Origin: Pseudacidovorax intermedius
Lineage (GTDB): Bacteria; Pseudomonadota; Gammaproteobacteria; Burkholderiales; Burkholderiaceae_C
NCBI RefSeq assembly: GCF_001476815.1
Contig: NZ_LDSL01000151.1
Coordinates: 1 to 34,362 of the forward strand
DNA: 34,362 nucleotides
Direction of reading: 5' to 3'
Positions 4,296 to 34,002 of this stretch are shown here, one piece after another (within the stretch, counting starts at the first letter, position 1; the number at the start of each line of letters is the position of its first letter). Under the pieces are notes generated by a model that saw nothing but the letters and a program-made list of their open reading frames with translations, was not told the DNA's origin and did no database searches. Position numbers and translations under genes: made by a program.

Positions 4296-4334
4296 CCCTC
4301 TCCCCTCGCGGCAGAGGGGTCGGGGGAGAGGGGG
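4296..4334. repeat. Interspersed palindromic repeat, copy 2
   Basis: This sequence is closely similar to the element at 1-40 (CCCTCTCCCCTCG...GGGGGAGAGGGGG). It forms the left arm of a larger inverted pair with 4377-4413, which lies between mprF and the acvB-like gene. Folding of the transcript here could attenuate acvB relative to mprF. Confidence 0.7.
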
Positions 4335-4376
4335 TGCTCGCGCGCCACGTTTGGCAGGCTTGCGCGAATGCCGGCG

Positions 4377-4413
4377 CCCCCTCTCCCCGGCCCTCTCCCG
4401 CGAGGGGAGAGGG
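4377..4413. repeat. Interspersed palindromic repeat, copy 3 (inverted)
   Basis: This is the inverted partner of 4296-4334, running CCCCCTCTCCCC to CGAGGGGAGAGGG. It sits 15 bp downstream of the mprF stop codon in the direction of transcription. The two arms are about 42 bp apart and can pair over most of their length, as well as fold individually. Confidence 0.7.
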
Positions 4414-4428
4414 AGAGACGAGCGCCGT

Positions 4429-7092
4429 TCACTTGCCCGCCTCGAACTTGCCGATCACGCCCTTGGCGCCGCCGCCGATCAGCGCCGCCAGGTCCAGCAG
4501 CACGAACAGCGGCGCGACGCCGCCGGGCGCGGCCAGGTAGCGGGGCTCCCACACGGGCTCGAACTTGTCCTTGAAGCTGCGCAGACCGCGGAAGTTGTAG
4601 AAGCGCTCGCCATGCTCGTAGAGCAGCCGGCCGAGCCGCTGCCAGCGCGGCGCATGCCGGCGCTCGGCCATGCCGGCCATGGGCGCCATGCCCAGGGCGA
4701 AGCGCTGGAAGCCGCAGTCCTTCAGGTGCAGCAGCACCTTGGCGAACAGGAAGTCCATGGTGCCGGGCGGCGCATCGGGCAGGTGGCGCATCAGGTCCAC
4801 CGCGGCCTCCTCGGCCGGGGCGGTGATCAGCAGGTTGGCGAAGGCGAGGATCCGGCCCTCGCGCCGGGCCACGGCCACGGGCAGGCGGCGCAGGTAGTCC
4901 TCGTCGAAGCGGCCGACCGAGAAGCGCTTCTCGCGCGTCTTCTGCTTGCCGAGCCAGGCGTCCGAGACGGCGCGCAGTTCGGGCAGCGCGGCGTCGAGCG
5001 CAGGGCCTTCCAGCACCTCGAACACCAGGCCCTCGCGCTCGCCGCGGTTCATGCCCGAGCGCAGGTTGGCCCGCTTGGCGCCCTTGAGGTTGAACTCGGG
5101 CAGTTCGATGTGCGCATGCTCGCCCAGCTTGAAGGCCTGCAGGCCGCAGTCCAGGTACAGCGGCAGGCTGGCCGGGCGTACCTGGTAGAAGGCCGGCCGG
5201 CCGCCGTGCTCCCGCGCCAGCTCGACGAAGCGCCAGGCCAGGTCGGCCATTTCCGCCCGGTCGCCGACGGGGCCGTACAACGCGATCCACGAGCGGTTCT
5301 GCTTGCCGTACATGAGGAAGCTGCGGCCGGAGGGCGAGAACAGCAGGTGCTTGTCGCCCGTGAGGGCGAAGCAGGCTTCGGCGCGCGGATTGGCGGCCAC
5401 GATGGCGGCGGCGCGGTCCAGTTCTTCCCGGGACGGCTCGGCCGCCTGGCCCGAGGGCGGGCGCAGCAGCTGCCACAGGCCGAAGGCCATGGCCGCCAGC
5501 GCCACGCCCAGCAGCGCCCGCAGCGAGCGCGGCGCCTGCGCGTCCAGCTCGAACTGCCACCACAGGCGATGGCTGTAGGCCACTTCCTGGTAGGCGAAGA
5601 ACAGCAGCCACAGCGAGCCGGCCAGCACCGCGCCCAGGGCCAGCAGCCAGCCGGGCTCCAGCCGCATGGCCAGCAGGGAGGAGCGGCGGTCGAACTGCTT
5701 GCGCGAGGCCACCAGCAGCAGCGCCAGCGTGGCCAGCAGCCCGGCCTCGTGCAGGGCGATGCCCTTGGGCAGCGCCAGCACGGCCGACACCAGCGCCAGC
5801 ACCAGCGCCGCCCACCAGGCGGCATCGAGCCGGTGGAACAGGCCGCGCGCCACCAGGAGCAGGCCCAGGCCCGCCACGCTGCCCAGGAAGTGCGAAGCCT
5901 CCACCAGCGGCAGCGGCACCTTGAGCGTGGCGAGCATCTCGCGCGCGTCCTCGGTGAAGGGCGTCACGCCCGAGGCGATGAGCCACAGCCCGGCCACCAG
6001 CGTCAGCGCGGCCAGCAGGCGGGGGCTCAGGCGGGTGGCGGCGCGGGCGATGGGCGTGCCGACGCCGCTCTTCAGCTCCCAGCCCAGCACCAGCGCCGTC
6101 GCCGCCACCAGCGGGATCACGTAGTAGATGCCGCGGTACAGCACCAGCGCGGCCAGCATGCTTTCGGCCGGCACCTGCTCGCGGGTGGCGGCCAGCATGA
6201 CGGCCTCGAACACGCCCACGCCGCCCGGCACGTGGCTGATGATGCCGGCCACGATGGCGATGGCATAGAAGGCCGTGAAGGCGGGCAGGTCCATGCGCTC
6301 GCCGGGCAGCAAAAACCACAGGGCCGCCGCCGAGGCCATCAGCTCGAAGGCGGAGATCACCAGCTGCTGCACCGCCAGCCCGGCCGGCGGCAGCCGCAGG
6401 CGCCAGCGGCCGCCCAGCTGCAGCGTGCGCTGGCGCCGGCACAGCAGCAGGAACACCGCCACGCCCAGCAGCAGCGCCGCCGCGCCGGCCTGCAGCAGGG
6501 TCGCCGGCAGGTGCAGGAGCTCGGCCACGTCCGGCGCGCCCCACAGCAGTGCCCCGGCGCCGAAGGCCAGGATGCCGAGCGCGAAGGCCGCCGCGTTGAA
6601 CACCACCACCTGCGCCACCTGGTGCGCCTTGAGGCCCGCCGCCGTGTACAGCCGCGTGCGCACCGCGCCGCCGGTCAGCGGCCCCAGGCCGATGGTGTTG
6701 GACAGGGCATAGGCGGTGAACGAGGTCAGCAGCACCGTGCCGCCGTTCACCCGCGCCCGCGCATAGGCCAGGGCGGAGAAGTCGTAGCCGGTCAGGATGA
6801 GGTAGCTGGCCGCCGTGGCCATCAGGGCCAGCAGGATGTCCAGCTCATGGGTGGCGGCGATGGCCTGCATCACCTCGTCATAGCGCACCTGGCCGGCCAG
6901 GCCGTGCAGGGCGGCGGCCAGCAGCAGGCACATCAGCACGGCGGCGAGTGCGATCAGCCACGGCTTGGCGCGCTGCCAGCCGCGGGCGACGGCCTCCGTC
7001 GGGGCGGAGCGCGCGTGCGGGCGCGCGGTATCGGGGGAAGTCGGGGAAAGCTCGGTCACGGTGTACAAACAGGGGCGCGGCGGCCCACGCAT
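4429..7092 (-). CDS. mprF: Bifunctional phosphatidylglycerol aminoacyl-transferase/flippase MprF
   Basis: This protein of about 887 aa has two parts. The N-terminal 550 or so residues form many membrane segments (first near 'PWLIALAAVLMCLLLAAAL') with the flippase-type 'YALSNTIGLGPLTGGAVRTRLY' and 'SHVPGGVGVFEA' motifs. The C-terminal 300 or so residues form the cytosolic synthase (DUF2156, GNAT-like fold), with 'FNLKGAKRANLRSGMNRGEREG' and 'FYNFRGLRSFKDKFEPVWEPRYL' as family signatures. MprF transfers lysine or alanine from aminoacyl-tRNA to phosphatidylglycerol and flips the product outward, lowering membrane negative charge and raising resistance to cationic peptides and acid. The start is uncertain: ATG 7092 is used, and GTG 7059 would remove 11 residues. 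It is divergent from the malonyl-CoA decarboxylase gene and followed by an acvB-like gene. Confidence 0.93.
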   Translation of the reverse strand: MRGPPRPCLYTVTELSPTSPDTARPHARSAPTEAVARGWQRAKPWLIALAAVLMCLLLAAALHGLAGQVRYDEVMQAIAATHELDILLALMATAASYLILTGYDFSALAYARARVNGGTVLLTSFTAYALSNTIGLGPLTGGAVRTRLYTAAGLKAHQVAQVVVFNAAAFALGILAFGAGALLWGAPDVAELLHLPATLLQAGAAALLLGVAVFLLLCRRQRTLQLGGRWRLRLPPAGLAVQQLVISAFELMASAAALWFLLPGERMDLPAFTAFYAIAIVAGIISHVPGGVGVFEAVMLAATREQVPAESMLAALVLYRGIYYVIPLVAATALVLGWELKSGVGTPIARAATRLSPRLLAALTLVAGLWLIASGVTPFTEDAREMLATLKVPLPLVEASHFLGSVAGLGLLLVARGLFHRLDAAWWAALVLALVSAVLALPKGIALHEAGLLATLALLLVASRKQFDRRSSLLAMRLEPGWLLALGAVLAGSLWLLFFAYQEVAYSHRLWWQFELDAQAPRSLRALLGVALAAMAFGLWQLLRPPSGQAAEPSREELDRAAAIVAANPRAEACFALTGDKHLLFSPSGRSFLMYGKQNRSWIALYGPVGDRAEMADLAWRFVELAREHGGRPAFYQVRPASLPLYLDCGLQAFKLGEHAHIELPEFNLKGAKRANLRSGMNRGEREGLVFEVLEGPALDAALPELRAVSDAWLGKQKTREKRFSVGRFDEDYLRRLPVAVARREGRILAFANLLITAPAEEAAVDLMRHLPDAPPGTMDFLFAKVLLHLKDCGFQRFALGMAPMAGMAERRHAPRWQRLGRLLYEHGERFYNFRGLRSFKDKFEPVWEPRYLAAPGGVAPLFVLLDLAALIGGGAKGVIGKFEAGK

Positions 7093-26749: not shown

Positions 26750-26760
26750 GAAGAATTAGG

Positions 26761-26933
26761 TGTCTGCGAATGCGACCGGACCGTCATCCTGAACGCAGGG
26801 TTCAGGTGGGCGAGGGCAGCATGGCATTGGGTTCATCTGACGCGAGATGATCACGCTTGCCAAGCGATGTACCAAGCCCGGGCTCCATAGAGCATTGGTT
26901 CAAGGAAATATAAAGCCCGGCGGCACCGCAGAC
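26761..26933 (-). ncRNA. ssrS: 6S RNA candidate
   Basis: A gene-free 530-bp stretch lies directly downstream of zapA, the conserved place of ssrS in proteobacteria. On the minus strand a 173-nt segment is closed by GTCTGCG...CGCAGAC, extended by GTGC/GCAT with one bulged U. Near the 3' end is a hairpin CCTGAAC-CCTGC-GTTCAGG, like the 3'-side stem 'CCUUGAACC...GGUUCAAGG' of E. coli 6S RNA. TAGAAT at 26945-26940 is a good -10 ending 6 nt before the RNA. 6S RNA imitates an open promoter and holds RNA polymerase with the housekeeping sigma factor in stationary phase. Ends are approximate. Confidence 0.75.
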
Positions 26934-26939
26934 GAGTTC

Positions 26940-27511: not shown

Positions 27512-27741
27512 GGCGTCGGCGTGATGGAAGAGGAGGTGCCGGAGTCGGCGGGCAGCCGTTCGAGCATGGCATCGATGCGCGTGCGGGCGGTGGAGAGCCG
27601 TGCACGCAGCGCGTCGCGTTCGCGGGTGAGCGCCTCGACCTGCTGCTGCAGCAGCGCATTGGTGCGCCGCACTTCCTCGTGGCGCACGAGCAGGCGCTCC
27701 ACGCGGTCGGCGATCTGATCGATGGGGCTCGGTGCAGACAT
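27508..27741 (-). CDS. zapB: Small coiled-coil protein, ZapB-like
   Basis: This 77-aa protein is nearly all coiled coil: 'IDQIADRVERLLVRHEEVRRTNALLQQQVEALTRERDALRARLSTARTRIDAMLERLP' shows heptads, and a short Ser/Thr/Pro tail follows. It overlaps zapA by 4 bases, so the two are translationally coupled. The pairing and size match the small coiled-coil proteins upstream of zapA in betaproteobacteria, which are annotated as ZapB-like or DUF904/TIGR02449. It probably cooperates with ZapA at the division ring. Confidence 0.85.
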   Translation of the reverse strand: MSAPSPIDQIADRVERLLVRHEEVRRTNALLQQQVEALTRERDALRARLSTARTRIDAMLERLPADSGTSSSITPTP

Positions 27742-27791
27742 GGTCGGCGATTGTAGGCGGGCAGCTTGCGGCGTCTGCCTACAATGCGCGC

Positions 27792-28095
27792 CGTTGTTGG
27801 TGCTCGCGGCGCGGTTCGCGCGTCGCAGTTCAACGGGAAGCAGGAGCCGGCGCATGCCTCGGGTGTGCGCTTCGGCTGCGGACCACCGCCACTTTTCTCG
27901 CCTCGCGGCGCGGGATCGTGCGGCCACCGGTCCGCAGCCTGGCCAGCCTGCGCTGCCCCCGCAACGGTGAAGCAGCCGGCGCACGTGGACCTCCACGTGC
28001 GCCACGCCGTCCACGCAAGCCACTGGGTGCCGTCGAAACGCGGTGCCTGGGAAGGCGGCCGGCGCGCGCTGCCAGCCCGGATACCGGCCAACACA
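27792..28095 (+). promoter_or_regulatory. Cobalamin (AdoCbl-type) riboswitch with expanded arm
   Basis: The conserved cobalamin riboswitch blocks occur in order: an early GGTGC (27799-27803), ACGGGAAGC (27833-27841), GCTGCCCCCGCAAC (27952-27965), GCCACTG (28019-28025), GGGAAGGC (28049-28056) and the B12 box AGCCCGGATACCGGCC (28074-28089). It sits about 110 bp upstream of btuB. The distance between GGGAA and GCTGCCCC is 112 nt instead of the usual 20-25. The insert contains an 11-bp stem GGCTGCGGACC (27874-27884) / GGTCCGCAGCC (27929-27939). Binding of B12 should repress the downstream btu/cob operon. Confidence 0.93.
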
Positions 28096-28202
28096 GGCGG
28101 CTGCCGCATCGTGGAGAAGCGATTCGCGCAGCCATGACGTCCCATCGCCGGCGGGGAGGCCGGCCAGGGACATGCTTCACGAAGCCCCGGCTTCCACATT
28201 CC

Positions 28203-30118
<1,916 letters not shown>

Positions 30119-30134
<16 letters not shown>

Positions 30135-31507
30135 ACGCCGCAGCCACGCCAGAGCCGCCGCACGCGGCGGTGGCGCGCACCTGCGCGGCCGTGCTGGTGT
30201 CGGCCCCGGCCTCGGGCCAGGGCAAGACCACCGTGGCCGCGGCCCTGGCCCGCCTGCATGCGCGGCAGGGCCGCCGCGTGCGGGCCTTCAAGTGCGGGCC
30301 GGACTTCCTCGATCCGCAGTGGCTGGCCCTGGCCACCGGCGCGCCGGTGCACGGGCTGGACCTGTGGATCAACGGCGAGGCGGACGTGCGCGCGCGCCTG
30401 CATGCCGCCGCCGGCGAGGCCGACCTGATCGTCGTCGAAGGCGCCATGGGCCTGTTCGACGGCGAAACCAGCGCCGCCGATCTGGCGCGCCGTCTCGGCC
30501 TGCCGGTGGTGGCGGTGATCGATGCAGGCGCCATGGCTGGCACCTTCGGCGCGCTGGCGCACGGCCTGCAGCACTACCAGGACGGCCTGCCCTGGGCCGG
30601 CGTGCTGGCCAATCGCGTGGCGAGCGAGCGCCATGCCGGCATGCTGCGCGGCGCGCTGCGCGATCCGGGCCACTGGCTGGGTGCACTGCCGCGCAGCGCG
30701 GACTTTGGCCTGCCCGAACGCCACCTCGGCCTGGTGCCCAGCGCCGAACTCCGCGATGCGCTGGCCCGCCTCGACGCGGCAGCCGATGCCCTGGCCGCCA
30801 CGCCTCTGGGCCAGCGCGCGCCCGCCGCGCTGCCGCAGGTGGAATTCACAGCGCCCCCGCCGGCCGCGCCGCTGCCGCCGCTGCTGGCGGGCCGCACCAT
30901 CGCCGTGGCGCGCGATGCGGCCTTCTGCTTCGTCTACGAGGCCAACCTCGACCTGCTGCGGGCCCTGGGTGCGCGGCTCGCCTTCTTCTCGCCCCTGGCG
31001 GGCGATGCGCTGCCGGCCTGCGATGCGCTGTGGCTGCCCGGCGGCTATCCCGAGCTGCATGCCGCCCGCCTGGCCGAACGCACCGACCTGCGCGACGCGC
31101 TGCAGGCCCATGCCGCCGCGGGCCGTGCCATCTGGGCCGAGTGCGGCGGCATGATGGCGTTGTTCGACGAACTGGTGGACAAGGCCGGCACCGCCCATCG
31201 CCTGTGGGGCCTGCTGCCCGGCCGCACCGTGATGCAGGCGCGCCTGGCGGGCCTGGGGCCGCAATGGCTGGCGGTGGAGGACGGCACGCTGCGCGGCCAC
31301 ACCTTCCATTACTCGCGCTGCGAGACGGCCTTGCCGGCCGCGGCCCGCAGCGCCCGGCCCGGTGCCGCGCCGCAGCCGGATGCCGGCGAAGCGCTGTACG
31401 GGCAGGGCCCGGTACGCGCGAGCTACTTCCACGCCTGGTTCCCGTCCGAGCCCGCCGCCGCGGCGCGCCTCTTCGACGGCGCGCCCCTGCGAACATCGGC
31501 GGCATGA
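30119..31507 (+). CDS. cobB: Cobyrinate/hydrogenobyrinate a,c-diamide synthase
   Basis: This protein of about 462 aa amidates the a and c side chains of cobyrinate or hydrogenobyrinate, using glutamine and ATP. The N-terminal dethiobiotin synthetase-like domain has the P-loop 'SAPASGQGKTTV', 'RVRAFKCGPDFLDPQ' and 'VVEGAMGLFDG'. The C-terminal class I-like glutaminase domain has the catalytic Cys342 in 'WAECGGMMAL' and His in 'LRGHTFHYSR'. The start is not certain: GTG 30119 overlaps btuB by 16 bases, GTG 30170 is an alternative, and no ATG is available. It shares ATGA with the following cobU. Confidence 0.93.
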
Positions 31508-32082
31508 GCACGATGCCCGTCCACGAATTCATCCTCGGCGGCCAGAAGAGCGGCAAGTCCCGCCGCGCCGAAGCCGCCGCCGGCCGCTGGCTGGCCGCGG
31601 CGCCCGACCGGCGCGCCGTGCTGCTGGCCACCGCCCAGGCCTGGGACGGCGAAATGGCCCGGCGCATCGAACGCCACCGCCAGGAGCGCGCCGAGCGCGT
31701 GCCCGGCCTGGAGACGGTGGAAGAGCCGTTGCGCCTGCCCGAGCTGCTCGGCGCCCTGAGCCAGCCGGACACGCTTCTGGTGGTCGACTGCCTCACGCTG
31801 TGGCTCACCAACCTGCTGATGCCGCCCGAGCTGGACCCGCAGCGCGCCCCGCTGCCCGACTGGCGCACCCAGTCGCTGCTGCTGGTGGCGGCGCTGGAGC
31901 GGGCGCCGGGGCCGGTGGTGCTGGTCGGCAACGAGATCGGCCTGGGCGTGATCCCGCTCGGCGAGGAGACCCGCGCCTTCGTCGACGCCCTGGGCCAGCT
32001 CAACCAGCACGTCGCCGCCGCCTGCGGCCGCGTGACGCTGATGGTGGCCGGCCTGCCCCTGACCGTGAAGGAGACCGCATGA
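31504..32082 (+). CDS. cobU: Adenosylcobinamide kinase/adenosylcobinamide-phosphate guanylyltransferase
   Basis: This 192-aa bifunctional enzyme (CobU, also called CobP) phosphorylates adenosylcobinamide and then adds GMP to give GDP-adenosylcobinamide. The Walker A motif is 'GGQKSGKS' at residues 12-19, His58 in 'RIERHRQER' matches the guanylylated histidine of Salmonella CobU (His46), and 'LLVVDCLTLWLTNLL' matches the family's Walker B region. The start ATG overlaps the cobB stop (ATGA at 31504-31507), and its stop overlaps the btuF start in the same way, so all three are translationally coupled. Confidence 0.95.
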   Translation: MSTMPVHEFILGGQKSGKSRRAEAAAGRWLAAAPDRRAVLLATAQAWDGEMARRIERHRQERAERVPGLETVEEPLRLPELLGALSQPDTLLVVDCLTLWLTNLLMPPELDPQRAPLPDWRTQSLLLVAALERAPGPVVLVGNEIGLGVIPLGEETRAFVDALGQLNQHVAAACGRVTLMVAGLPLTVKETA

Positions 32083-32981
32083 AGTTCCGGCGCATCCTGC
32101 AAGCCTGCAGCGCCTTCAGGCGGGCCGTGACCGCCCTGCTGCTGGCCGCCGCGCTGCCGGCCCTGTACGCCGCCCCCGTCGAGGTGGTGGACGAGCGCGG
32201 CGCCACCGTGCGCCTGGCCCAGCCGCCGCAGCGCATCGTGGCGCTGCTGCCTTCGCTGACCGAAACGGTCTGCGTGCTCGGCGCCTGCGAGCGCCTGGTC
32301 GGCGTGGACCGCTATTCCAACTGGCCCGATCCGGTGCGCAAGCTGCCCCAGGTGGGCGGCGGCATCGATCCCAACGTCGAGGCCGTGGTCGCGCTGCGGC
32401 CCGACCTGGTGCTGGCCGCCAAGTCCTCGCGCGTGGTGGAGCGGCTGCAGGCCCTGGGCCTGACGGTGGCCGTCCTCGAGCCCAAGACCCAGGCCGACGT
32501 CGAACGCGTCATGGTGAAGGTCGGCACGCTGCTGGGCGTGGAGGGCGCGCCCGTGCTCTGGAAGCGGTTGCAGGCCGACCTGGACGCCGCCGCCCGCTCG
32601 GTGCCCGAAGCCCGGCGCGGTCAGCGCGTGTATTTCGAGGTCAACAACGGCCCCTACGCGGCCGGCGAGAGCTCCTTCATGGGCGAGACGCTGACCCGCC
32701 TGGGCGCGCGCAACATCGTGCCGGCGGCGATGGGGCCCTTTCCCAAGCTCAACCCCGAGTTCGTGGTGCGGGCCGACCCGGACCTGATCATGGTCGGCGC
32801 CCGCAGCGCCGTCGGCCTGGAGCAGCGGCCCGGCTGGGCCGGCATCCGCGCCGTGCGCGACGGCCGCATCTGCCGCTTCAGCGCCGCGCAGTCCGACGTG
32901 CTGGTGCGCCCCGGCCCGCGCCTGGGCGAGGCCGCGCGGTTGATGGCCGACTGCCTGGCCGGCCGGCCGCTGGCGGACTGA
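32079..32981 (+). CDS. btuF: Cobalamin ABC transporter periplasmic-binding protein
   Basis: This 300-aa protein has a signal peptide (cleavage after LYA near residue 31) and the class III (helical-backbone) binding-protein fold: 'PQRIVALLPSLTETVCVLGACERLVGVDRYSNWP' in the first lobe and 'PEFVVRADPDLIMVG' in the second. Among corrinoid/iron receptors, context with btuCD and the riboswitch supports vitamin B12. The start overlaps cobU by four bases. The permease gene follows after 19 bp. Confidence 0.9.
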   Translation: MKFRRILQACSAFRRAVTALLLAAALPALYAAPVEVVDERGATVRLAQPPQRIVALLPSLTETVCVLGACERLVGVDRYSNWPDPVRKLPQVGGGIDPNVEAVVALRPDLVLAAKSSRVVERLQALGLTVAVLEPKTQADVERVMVKVGTLLGVEGAPVLWKRLQADLDAAARSVPEARRGQRVYFEVNNGPYAAGESSFMGETLTRLGARNIVPAAMGPFPKLNPEFVVRADPDLIMVGARSAVGLEQRPGWAGIRAVRDGRICRFSAAQSDVLVRPGPRLGEAARLMADCLAGRPLAD

Positions 32982-33000: not shown

Positions 33001-34002
33001 ATGCCGAACACCCGCCGCGCCCCCTTGCTGATGCTGGCCCTGCTCGCGGCCGCGCTGCTGCTGGGTCTGCTGGGCGCGGCCGTCGGCAGCACCGGCGCCG
33101 AGCGGCTGTGGCAGCTGGCCCACGACCCGGTGGCCTGGCAGATCGTGCGAGACATCCGCCTGCCGCGCACCGTGGGCGCGTGGCTGGCGGGCGGGCTGCT
33201 CGGGCTGGCCGGTGCGGTGGCGCAGGGCCTGTTCCGCAATCCGCTGGCCGACCCCTGGCTGCTCGGCAGCGCCTCCGGAGCCGGCCTGGGCGTGGCGCTG
33301 GCGCTCACGGCCATCGGCGGCCCGCCCGCGGCGGCGGCCTGGGGCGTGCGCCTGGGCCTGACCGGGGCCGCCTTCGCCGGCGCCGTCGCCGCCGTGCTGC
33401 TGACCCTGACGCTGGCGCGCGGCGCCCAGCAGACGCTGCGGCTGCTGCTGGCCGGCGTCATCGTCGGCATGGTGCTGGGCGCCGCCAAGGACCTGCTCAC
33501 CCTGGCCGAAGCCGACGTGCTGCAGGCCCTGGTGGTCTTCATGCTGGGCAACACCGCGCTGGTGGGCTGGACGGCCTGCGGCGTCATGGCCGTGGCGCTG
33601 GCCGTGTGCCTGTTCGCCGCGCGGCTGCTGGCGCCGGTGCTCGACGGCCTGGCCCTGGGCGAGGCCACCGCCGCCAGCCTGGGCCTGCCGCTGCCCGCCA
33701 TGCGCGTGGCGCTGGTGGCCGTGCTGTCGCTGGCCACCGGCGCCGCCGTGGCGCAGACCGGGCTGATCGCCTTCGTCGGCCTGGCGGCGCCGCACCTGGT
33801 GCGCTCCATGGTCAAGACCACCCACGGCTGGCTGCTGATGCTGTCGGCCTTCATGGGCGGGCTGCTGCTGATGGCGGCCGACCTGCTGGCCCGCTGGCTG
33901 ATCGCGCCGCAGGAACTGCCGGTGGGCGTGCTGACGGCGGTGCTGGGCGGCAGCTACCTGCTGGTGCTGATGCACCGGCGCACGCGGAGCGGCGCGGCAT
34001 GA
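33001..34002 (+). CDS. btuC: Cobalamin ABC transporter permease (FecCD family)
   Basis: This 333-aa protein has about ten membrane helices. FecCD-family blocks are present: 'RLPRTVGAWLAGGLLGLAGAVAQGLFRNPLADPWLLGSASGAGLG' near the N-terminus and 'TGLIAFVGLAAPHLVRSMV', with the cytoplasmic coupling loop, towards the C-terminus. It forms the B12 channel with BtuD. Its stop shares ATGA with the ATPase start (33999-34002). Confidence 0.94.
   Translation: MPNTRRAPLLMLALLAAALLLGLLGAAVGSTGAERLWQLAHDPVAWQIVRDIRLPRTVGAWLAGGLLGLAGAVAQGLFRNPLADPWLLGSASGAGLGVALALTAIGGPPAAAAWGVRLGLTGAAFAGAVAAVLLTLTLARGAQQTLRLLLAGVIVGMVLGAAKDLLTLAEADVLQALVVFMLGNTALVGWTACGVMAVALAVCLFAARLLAPVLDGLALGEATAASLGLPLPAMRVALVAVLSLATGAAVAQTGLIAFVGLAAPHLVRSMVKTTHGWLLMLSAFMGGLLLMAADLLARWLIAPQELPVGVLTAVLGGSYLLVLMHRRTRSGAA

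Follow-up and report, generated by a model that had tools for sequence, protein, structure and literature searches.

A predicted branched P4 arm in the btuB cobalamin riboswitch of a Pseudacidovorax clade

Is the leader that precedes a btuB-type gene of Pseudacidovorax intermedius a cobalamin riboswitch, with an arm of 112 nt between two of its conserved blocks, and if it is, what does this arm represent: a tolerated outgrowth, an accessory domain with a function of its own, a dispersed repeat, or an accident of base composition? The locus lies on contig NZ_LDSL01000151.1, in a stretch of 34,362 nt analysed here as a whole and referred to as the window, whose numbering is used throughout.

The riboswitch and the genes downstream

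The element in question occupies positions 27781-28106 of the forward strand and matches the Rfam cobalamin model RF00174 at 28.2 bits (E 7.8e-5, covariance-model search of a 1.7-kb stretch), with all 189 model positions (1-189) aligned in 5'-to-3' order; the match is the best of its clan and is kept after comparison within the clan in an Rfam scan. The blocks that the original prediction had described as present and in order can each be located in this alignment: GGGAA at 27835-27839, the P5/L5 segment GCTGCCCCCGC at 27952-27962, which provides one of the two partners expected in the kissing loop, and a B12 box whose limits we take to be 28074-28089. The 16 letters of this box are identical in all 13 btuB leaders compared, the same letters having also served to find these leaders. 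In the P6 extension, a peripheral hairpin, GGCGCACGTGG-ACCT-CCACGTGCGCC, is recognized at 27978-28003 from the sequence and from the fold of the leader.

The score is below the RF00174 gathering score of 31.5 bits, which is a curated cut-off and not a structural trait, and a scan of the whole 34-kb window at gathering scores returns no match. Genome-wide, the element is the sole RF00174 match with E < 1 (two others have E 2), the best E for it being only 0.366 under stricter filters. A match to the model is found in all 15 genomes of the genus, the one analysed here included, and 14 of them score above the cut-off, the long-armed relatives at 31.7-38.9 bits (5/5) and the short-armed ones at 46.2-57.2 (9/9). 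Judged by its sequence, the element is a cobalamin riboswitch, filed as such because it is homologous to relatives that pass the cut-off and not on its own score, the low value of which is most likely due to the lineage-specific insert. For annotation, this means that an apparently genuine btuB riboswitch falls below the Rfam cut-off.

The genes downstream, all on the strand of the riboswitch, are of types connected with B12 uptake or synthesis. They comprise a btuB-type TonB-dependent receptor at 28203-30134 (Pfam Plug and TonB_dep_Rec_b-barrel), whose start at 28203 coincides with an aligned start codon in five of five long-armed relatives, a cobB/cbiA-like amidotransferase at 30137-31507 (GATase_3, CbiA), a cobU-like gene at 31438-32082 (CobU), a gene for a btuF-like periplasmic binding protein at 32079-32981 (Peripla_BP_2), the starts of these last three being approximate, and a btuC-like permease at 33001-34002 (FecCD). 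The 16 BtuB relatives fetched include five from Pseudacidovorax (84-85% identity), eight Xenophilus and other records (57-66%) and three weak ones (29-36%). The originally predicted setting, a comamonad btuB leader with a cobalamin riboswitch, is borne out by the RF00174 match, by these relatives and by the Pfam assignments of the neighbouring genes.

The expression platform looks ordinary. A P13 hairpin at 28139-28171 on the forward strand (28147-28164 if delimited more narrowly) carries the loop GGGGAG (28153-28158), able to pair with the run of C that L5 offers, and is recognized by eye in 13 btuB leaders, long-armed or short-armed, with a loop GGGGA(A/G) and a stem that varies with its pairing kept; a role for it as the kissing-loop partner of L5, that is, as L13, is predicted by analogy with PMC10653944. 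In the cobalamin riboswitches covered in the accessible text of PMC10653944, ligand binding leads to the L5-L13 kissing loop and to stabilization of P13, resulting in the off state, and one activating cobalamin riboswitch is described there as well. A search of 27600-28250 gave no terminator-like site, which makes a block of translation more likely than termination; no clear ribosome-binding site for btuB could be pointed to. The ligand and the class are presumably AdoCbl and class I, an assignment that we infer. Class names follow the accessible text of PMC11260477. A different ligand class was also considered, with no positive evidence emerging: L5 and the B12 box are identical to those of the relatives, and the flanking aptamer is 90-100% identical to that of the long-armed relatives. 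Nor did the sequence comparison of long- and short-armed relatives reveal a sign of changed ligand choice or of a changed platform. The original suggestion that the extension might alter folding speed, ligand class preference or tertiary contacts thus gained no evidence on any of the three counts.

Two other elements of the neighbourhood deserve mention. Between the start of a zapB-like gene (27741, reverse strand) and the riboswitch, a perfect 9-bp inverted repeat, ATTGTAGGC/GCCTACAAT, is found at 27750-27758 and 27777-27785, each half having an outward-facing TACAAT; it may represent a pair of divergent -10 elements, or else an operator, a promoter scan at the repeat giving no full site. Further upstream, positions 26757-26937 of the reverse strand resemble 6S RNA (RF00013, 26.0 bits with a cut-off of 46.4, E 0.0074 in 1.7 kb), downstream of zapA and the zapB-like gene (28.1 bits, below the Pfam cut-off of 31.5) and on the same strand as these. 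This is probably a genuine but divergent ssrS of the lineage.

Predicted fold of the arm

The distance of 112 nt originally noted between GGGAA and GCTGCCCCCGC holds, and the enlarged arm extends from 27840 to 27951. The RF00174 alignment places GCAGG (27840-27844) and CCTGC (27947-27951) as the two strands of P4 and treats most of what lies between them as inserted into the loop of this helix, and not as normal consensus positions. The pairing at the base of the arm had thus been correctly foreseen, as CAGG with CCTG, with only its length misjudged, the helix having five pairs. The same P4 letters are found in the six long-armed and in the nine short-armed genomes of the genus, a count to be read with the fact that the search pattern itself required these letters (0 of 18 rows failed). 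Past P4, an A faces three nucleotides in an internal loop, followed by a 3-bp stem in which GCC (27846-27848) pairs with GGC (27941-27943), and then by a junction from which two branches are predicted to emerge, a hairpin, P4a (27849-27871), and a long stem, P4b (27874-27939). At the base of the latter lies the perfect 11-bp stem of the original prediction, GGCTGCGGACC/GGTCCGCAGCC (27874-27884 with 27929-27939), which is present in the minimum-energy fold.

Folding of the arm by minimum free energy and by centroid gives concordant structures, and its energy of -66.2 kcal/mol (z -3.34) is equalled by none of 200 dinucleotide shuffles. The arm takes the same shape within the 346-nt leader, by minimum energy as well as by centroid, although the leader as a whole has only a slight advantage over its shuffles (z -1.70, 3/100 as good). 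None of 4227 Rfam families searched at E up to 10 overlaps the insert (27840-27951) besides Cobalamin. With a G+C content of about 75%, the arm could be thought of as a chance fold within a decaying riboswitch, an explanation with which the modest standing of the whole leader and the RF00174 score below the gathering value would agree. Such an accident, however, would have to produce a fold unmatched among 200 shuffles, compensatory changes in the arm (see below), intact conserved blocks and P13, and the same arm in five relatives that all score above the RF00174 cut-off, and we give it next to no credence.

Conservation in the genus and occurrence elsewhere

Among the 15 genomes of the genus, the arm measures 112 nt in the window, 108, 108, 109, 109 and 109 nt in five others, and 39-41 nt in the remaining nine. 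The 20-25 nt originally assumed for a usual arm are therefore an underestimate for this genus, and a pattern allowing 13-73 nt is matched by at least 164 of 300 genomes sampled from the order. A tree built from 14 BtuB rows groups the six with long arms in a single clade (support 100/99), with one change of state. An earlier BtuB tree, which had the long arms in two places, was dropped, since at least two of its proteins were wrongly cut and others shortened. The short arms, those of Xenophilus and of the other genomes of the same genus, share with the long arm of the window the ends GCAGGAGC...CCTGC in most cases, as well as the B12 box and P13 in the leaders compared, but where the window has the fork they are predicted to form a single small hairpin. 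The clade of 108-112 nt arms, beside its sister species with arms of 39-41 nt, offers a clean natural pair for weighing the costs and benefits of large peripheral insertions to riboswitch function.

The same fork is predicted for all six long arms, and the four that were compared with shuffles gave z values of -3.3 to -5.0, each of them folding better than all 200 of its shuffles. The sequence of the arm has changed more than that of its surroundings: identity between the window and the five relatives is 68-73% over the ungapped columns of the arm, 98-100% for the 50 nt before it and 90-92% for the 146-149 nt after it. For 21 homologous pairs (those of P4, of the 3-bp stem and of P4a, plus pairs 1-7 of P4b), comparison of the window with its relatives finds 16 unchanged, four changed on both sides, one changed on one side and none broken in the window. 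All the changes fall in the 13 distal pairs, again with none broken: the six pairs of P4a show one two-sided and one one-sided change, and the first seven pairs of P4b show three two-sided changes. One relative has a single C-U mismatch in P4b. The evidence for covariation that these changes provide is moderate, not strong, because the register was chosen by hand from two folds and in effect two lineages are compared. The original prediction of a structured extension is supported, the stem being kept in the five close relatives with compensatory changes. Its perfection over 11 bp is special to the window, the consensus fold of the relatives having seven pairs, a mismatch and further pairs.

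Automated comparisons are less favorable. An RNAalifold run on the six arms as aligned by MAFFT yields a covariation term of +1.12, slightly unfavourable and hence no support; two-sided changes affect five of the 40 pairs, and several P4b pairs are broken. We put these breaks down to misalignment, as the P4b strand of the window appears to sit a few columns off in this alignment. A covariance model built from the five relatives ranks the arm of the window first in the 34 kb (26.4 bits, E 0.0019), with an unrelated G+C-rich repeat at 4354-4451 close behind (25.0 bits), and this model was set aside as a proof of homology, its top match being correct but hardly above a chance match. A search at E up to 0.001 returned eight matches, the five training arms and three minus-strand matches to those, without the arm of the window, and a sequence-only model from the relatives missed it at E up to 10. 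With model scores this weak, the homology of the arms rests instead on their position, ends and shape.

Long arms are also found outside the genus. Of 399 genomes searched in the family, among which the genus of the window has only six, 23 match a pattern allowing 65-125 nt, and the arm is readable at 21 of these loci: eight arms measure 66-112 nt, two 62 nt and 11 only 30-45 nt, the last two groups having been caught because the match started at a GGGAA further upstream; two loci gave no arm. The eight arms of 66-112 nt are those of the window, of one genome of the same genus, of five genomes of one other genus, and one more. These five (L097-L101), with arms of 66-70 nt, make up a second lineage with enlarged P4 arms in the same family. 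Across the order, at least 164 of the 300 genomes match the 13-73 nt pattern and 14 match one allowing 63-123 nt, the window and 13 others, at least two places (G542 and G594) being matched by both patterns. The 14 long arms measure 68-112 nt, and 12 of them have a B12 box by a simple pattern. Besides the window, whose arm is the longest read, they include G496 with 108 nt and G635 with 99 nt, both from another family, the latter value taken from the length of the match, as the arm-reading script began at an upstream GGGAA, two of 86 nt (G476 and G547) and nine of 68-81 nt. All 13 others are predicted to fold, 11 as rods and two (G546 and G098) as forks; in G520 the five-pair P4 is not formed in the minimum-energy fold. 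These arms share with that of the window the insertion site between GGGAA and L5 and a predicted fold, but they belong to other families, are dissimilar in sequence by eye and are mostly rods. Arms of 123-183 nt were sought in the same 300 genomes and no true one was found, the two matches being rejected, as the same places carry a shorter arm. All these counts are lower bounds, because the patterns demand one exact L5 sequence and leave out riboswitches with another L5. As similar inserts recur in the order, scans at gathering scores may miss some riboswitches.

Origin and significance of the insert

A dispersed element could have supplied the insert. The palindrome CCCTCTCCC-N5-GGGAGAGGG, a REPIN-like family, occurs in the window at 1-23, the contig starting inside this copy, and at 4391-4413, with a degenerate partner near 4297-4320; it has 108 sites in the genome, and among those listed it is often paired about 90 nt apart. 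In another family, the long arms of G635 and G496 (loci L118 and L119) contain short CAGGATTGAGGATTGAG-type repeats, which hint at growth of these two arms by repeat expansion. The abundance of the palindrome and the repeats in the G496 and G635 arms would fit the landing of a mobile or dispersed repeat of REPIN-like type in P4. The insert is without the palindrome, however, and no clear second copy of it is found in its own genome (next best E 0.08 of 40 matches, E up to 10), and the short arm of the relatives already has a hairpin at this site, growth from which is an equally good origin; the landing of a repeat thus appears very improbable.

A better case can be made for a functional accessory domain, one that would speed or order the co-transcriptional folding of P4 and P5, or would make a new tertiary or protein contact by which the switch is tuned. 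The same length class and the same fork in all six genomes of the clade, in the face of a divergence of 27-32% between the window and its relatives over aligned columns, and the stable fold of all four arms tested would agree with such a domain. The terminal loops of P4a and P4b, however, differ between the window and its relatives, with no conserved docking loop to be seen by eye, and the aptamer beside the arm is nearly unchanged. That the arm might pair with the expression platform was considered and rejected, since for each of the six sequences 80-91 of 100 mononucleotide-shuffled arms reach the same complementarity. We therefore regard an accessory function of this sort as unlikely. A more specific version, somewhat less likely again, is that the forked P4 is a clade-specific functional add-on selected for its shape, for example as a folding chaperone acting in cis or as a landing site for a protein. 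If this were true, Pseudacidovorax would tune B12 uptake in a way unseen in other cobalamin riboswitches.

Starting from the homology of the riboswitch, the position of the arm, its predicted fold and its conservation in six genomes of one clade, all documented here, the reading that we prefer, with a probability of roughly 80%, is that of a class-I AdoCbl riboswitch that represses the btuB operon and carries a tolerated branched domain where the tip of P4 would otherwise be. Repression would proceed via the ordinary L5-L13 kissing loop. The domain, of about 100 nt and folding on its own, would trace back to a single gain or enlargement in the ancestor shared by the Pseudacidovorax clade, at a site known to accept helices in cobalamin riboswitches. 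Lying outside the ligand-binding core, it would be mostly a stable, tolerated and near-neutral outgrowth, with selection, perhaps weak, keeping it folded and the core undisturbed as its sequence drifts. The length and the branching kept in all six genomes could instead reflect a real function.

How does this arrangement compare with what is known? A limited literature search found no paper that combines Pseudacidovorax with riboswitches and, among the matches listed, no title on a cobalamin P4 extension. With the cobalamin riboswitches described by RF00174, the riboswitch of the window shares the ordered 189 positions, GGGAA, L5, the B12 box, P13 with its putative L13 and the btuB context, and it differs in the 112-nt P4 arm with its branched insert and in the score, 28.2 versus 31.5 bits. 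Insertions in P4 are on record: according to the accessible text of Barrick and Breaker (2007; PMC2258182), the P4 loop of AdoCbl riboswitches resembles a T-loop, sometimes with a base-paired helix interrupting it, such inserts being variable insertions and the stem-loop having exactly five pairs. The arm of the window resembles this description in the five pairs of P4, in the insert within the terminal loop, in a stable predicted fold (the leader and arm folds, and the four shuffle-tested arms, predict that the insert folds apart from the core) and in the undisturbed aptamer on either side. It departs from the described T-loop in that the U-A pair is absent from the long- and short-armed members of the genus whose arm ends were compared; at this site there is an A on the 5' side, opposite C in the window or A in the relatives, followed by AG or GG before CC, and the two-nucleotide 3' bulge of the T-loop may remain in the genus. 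A second departure is the size and shape of the insert, forked and of about 100 nt. Going by that text, insertion at P4 is a kind already described, represented here by a large and branched form fixed in one clade.
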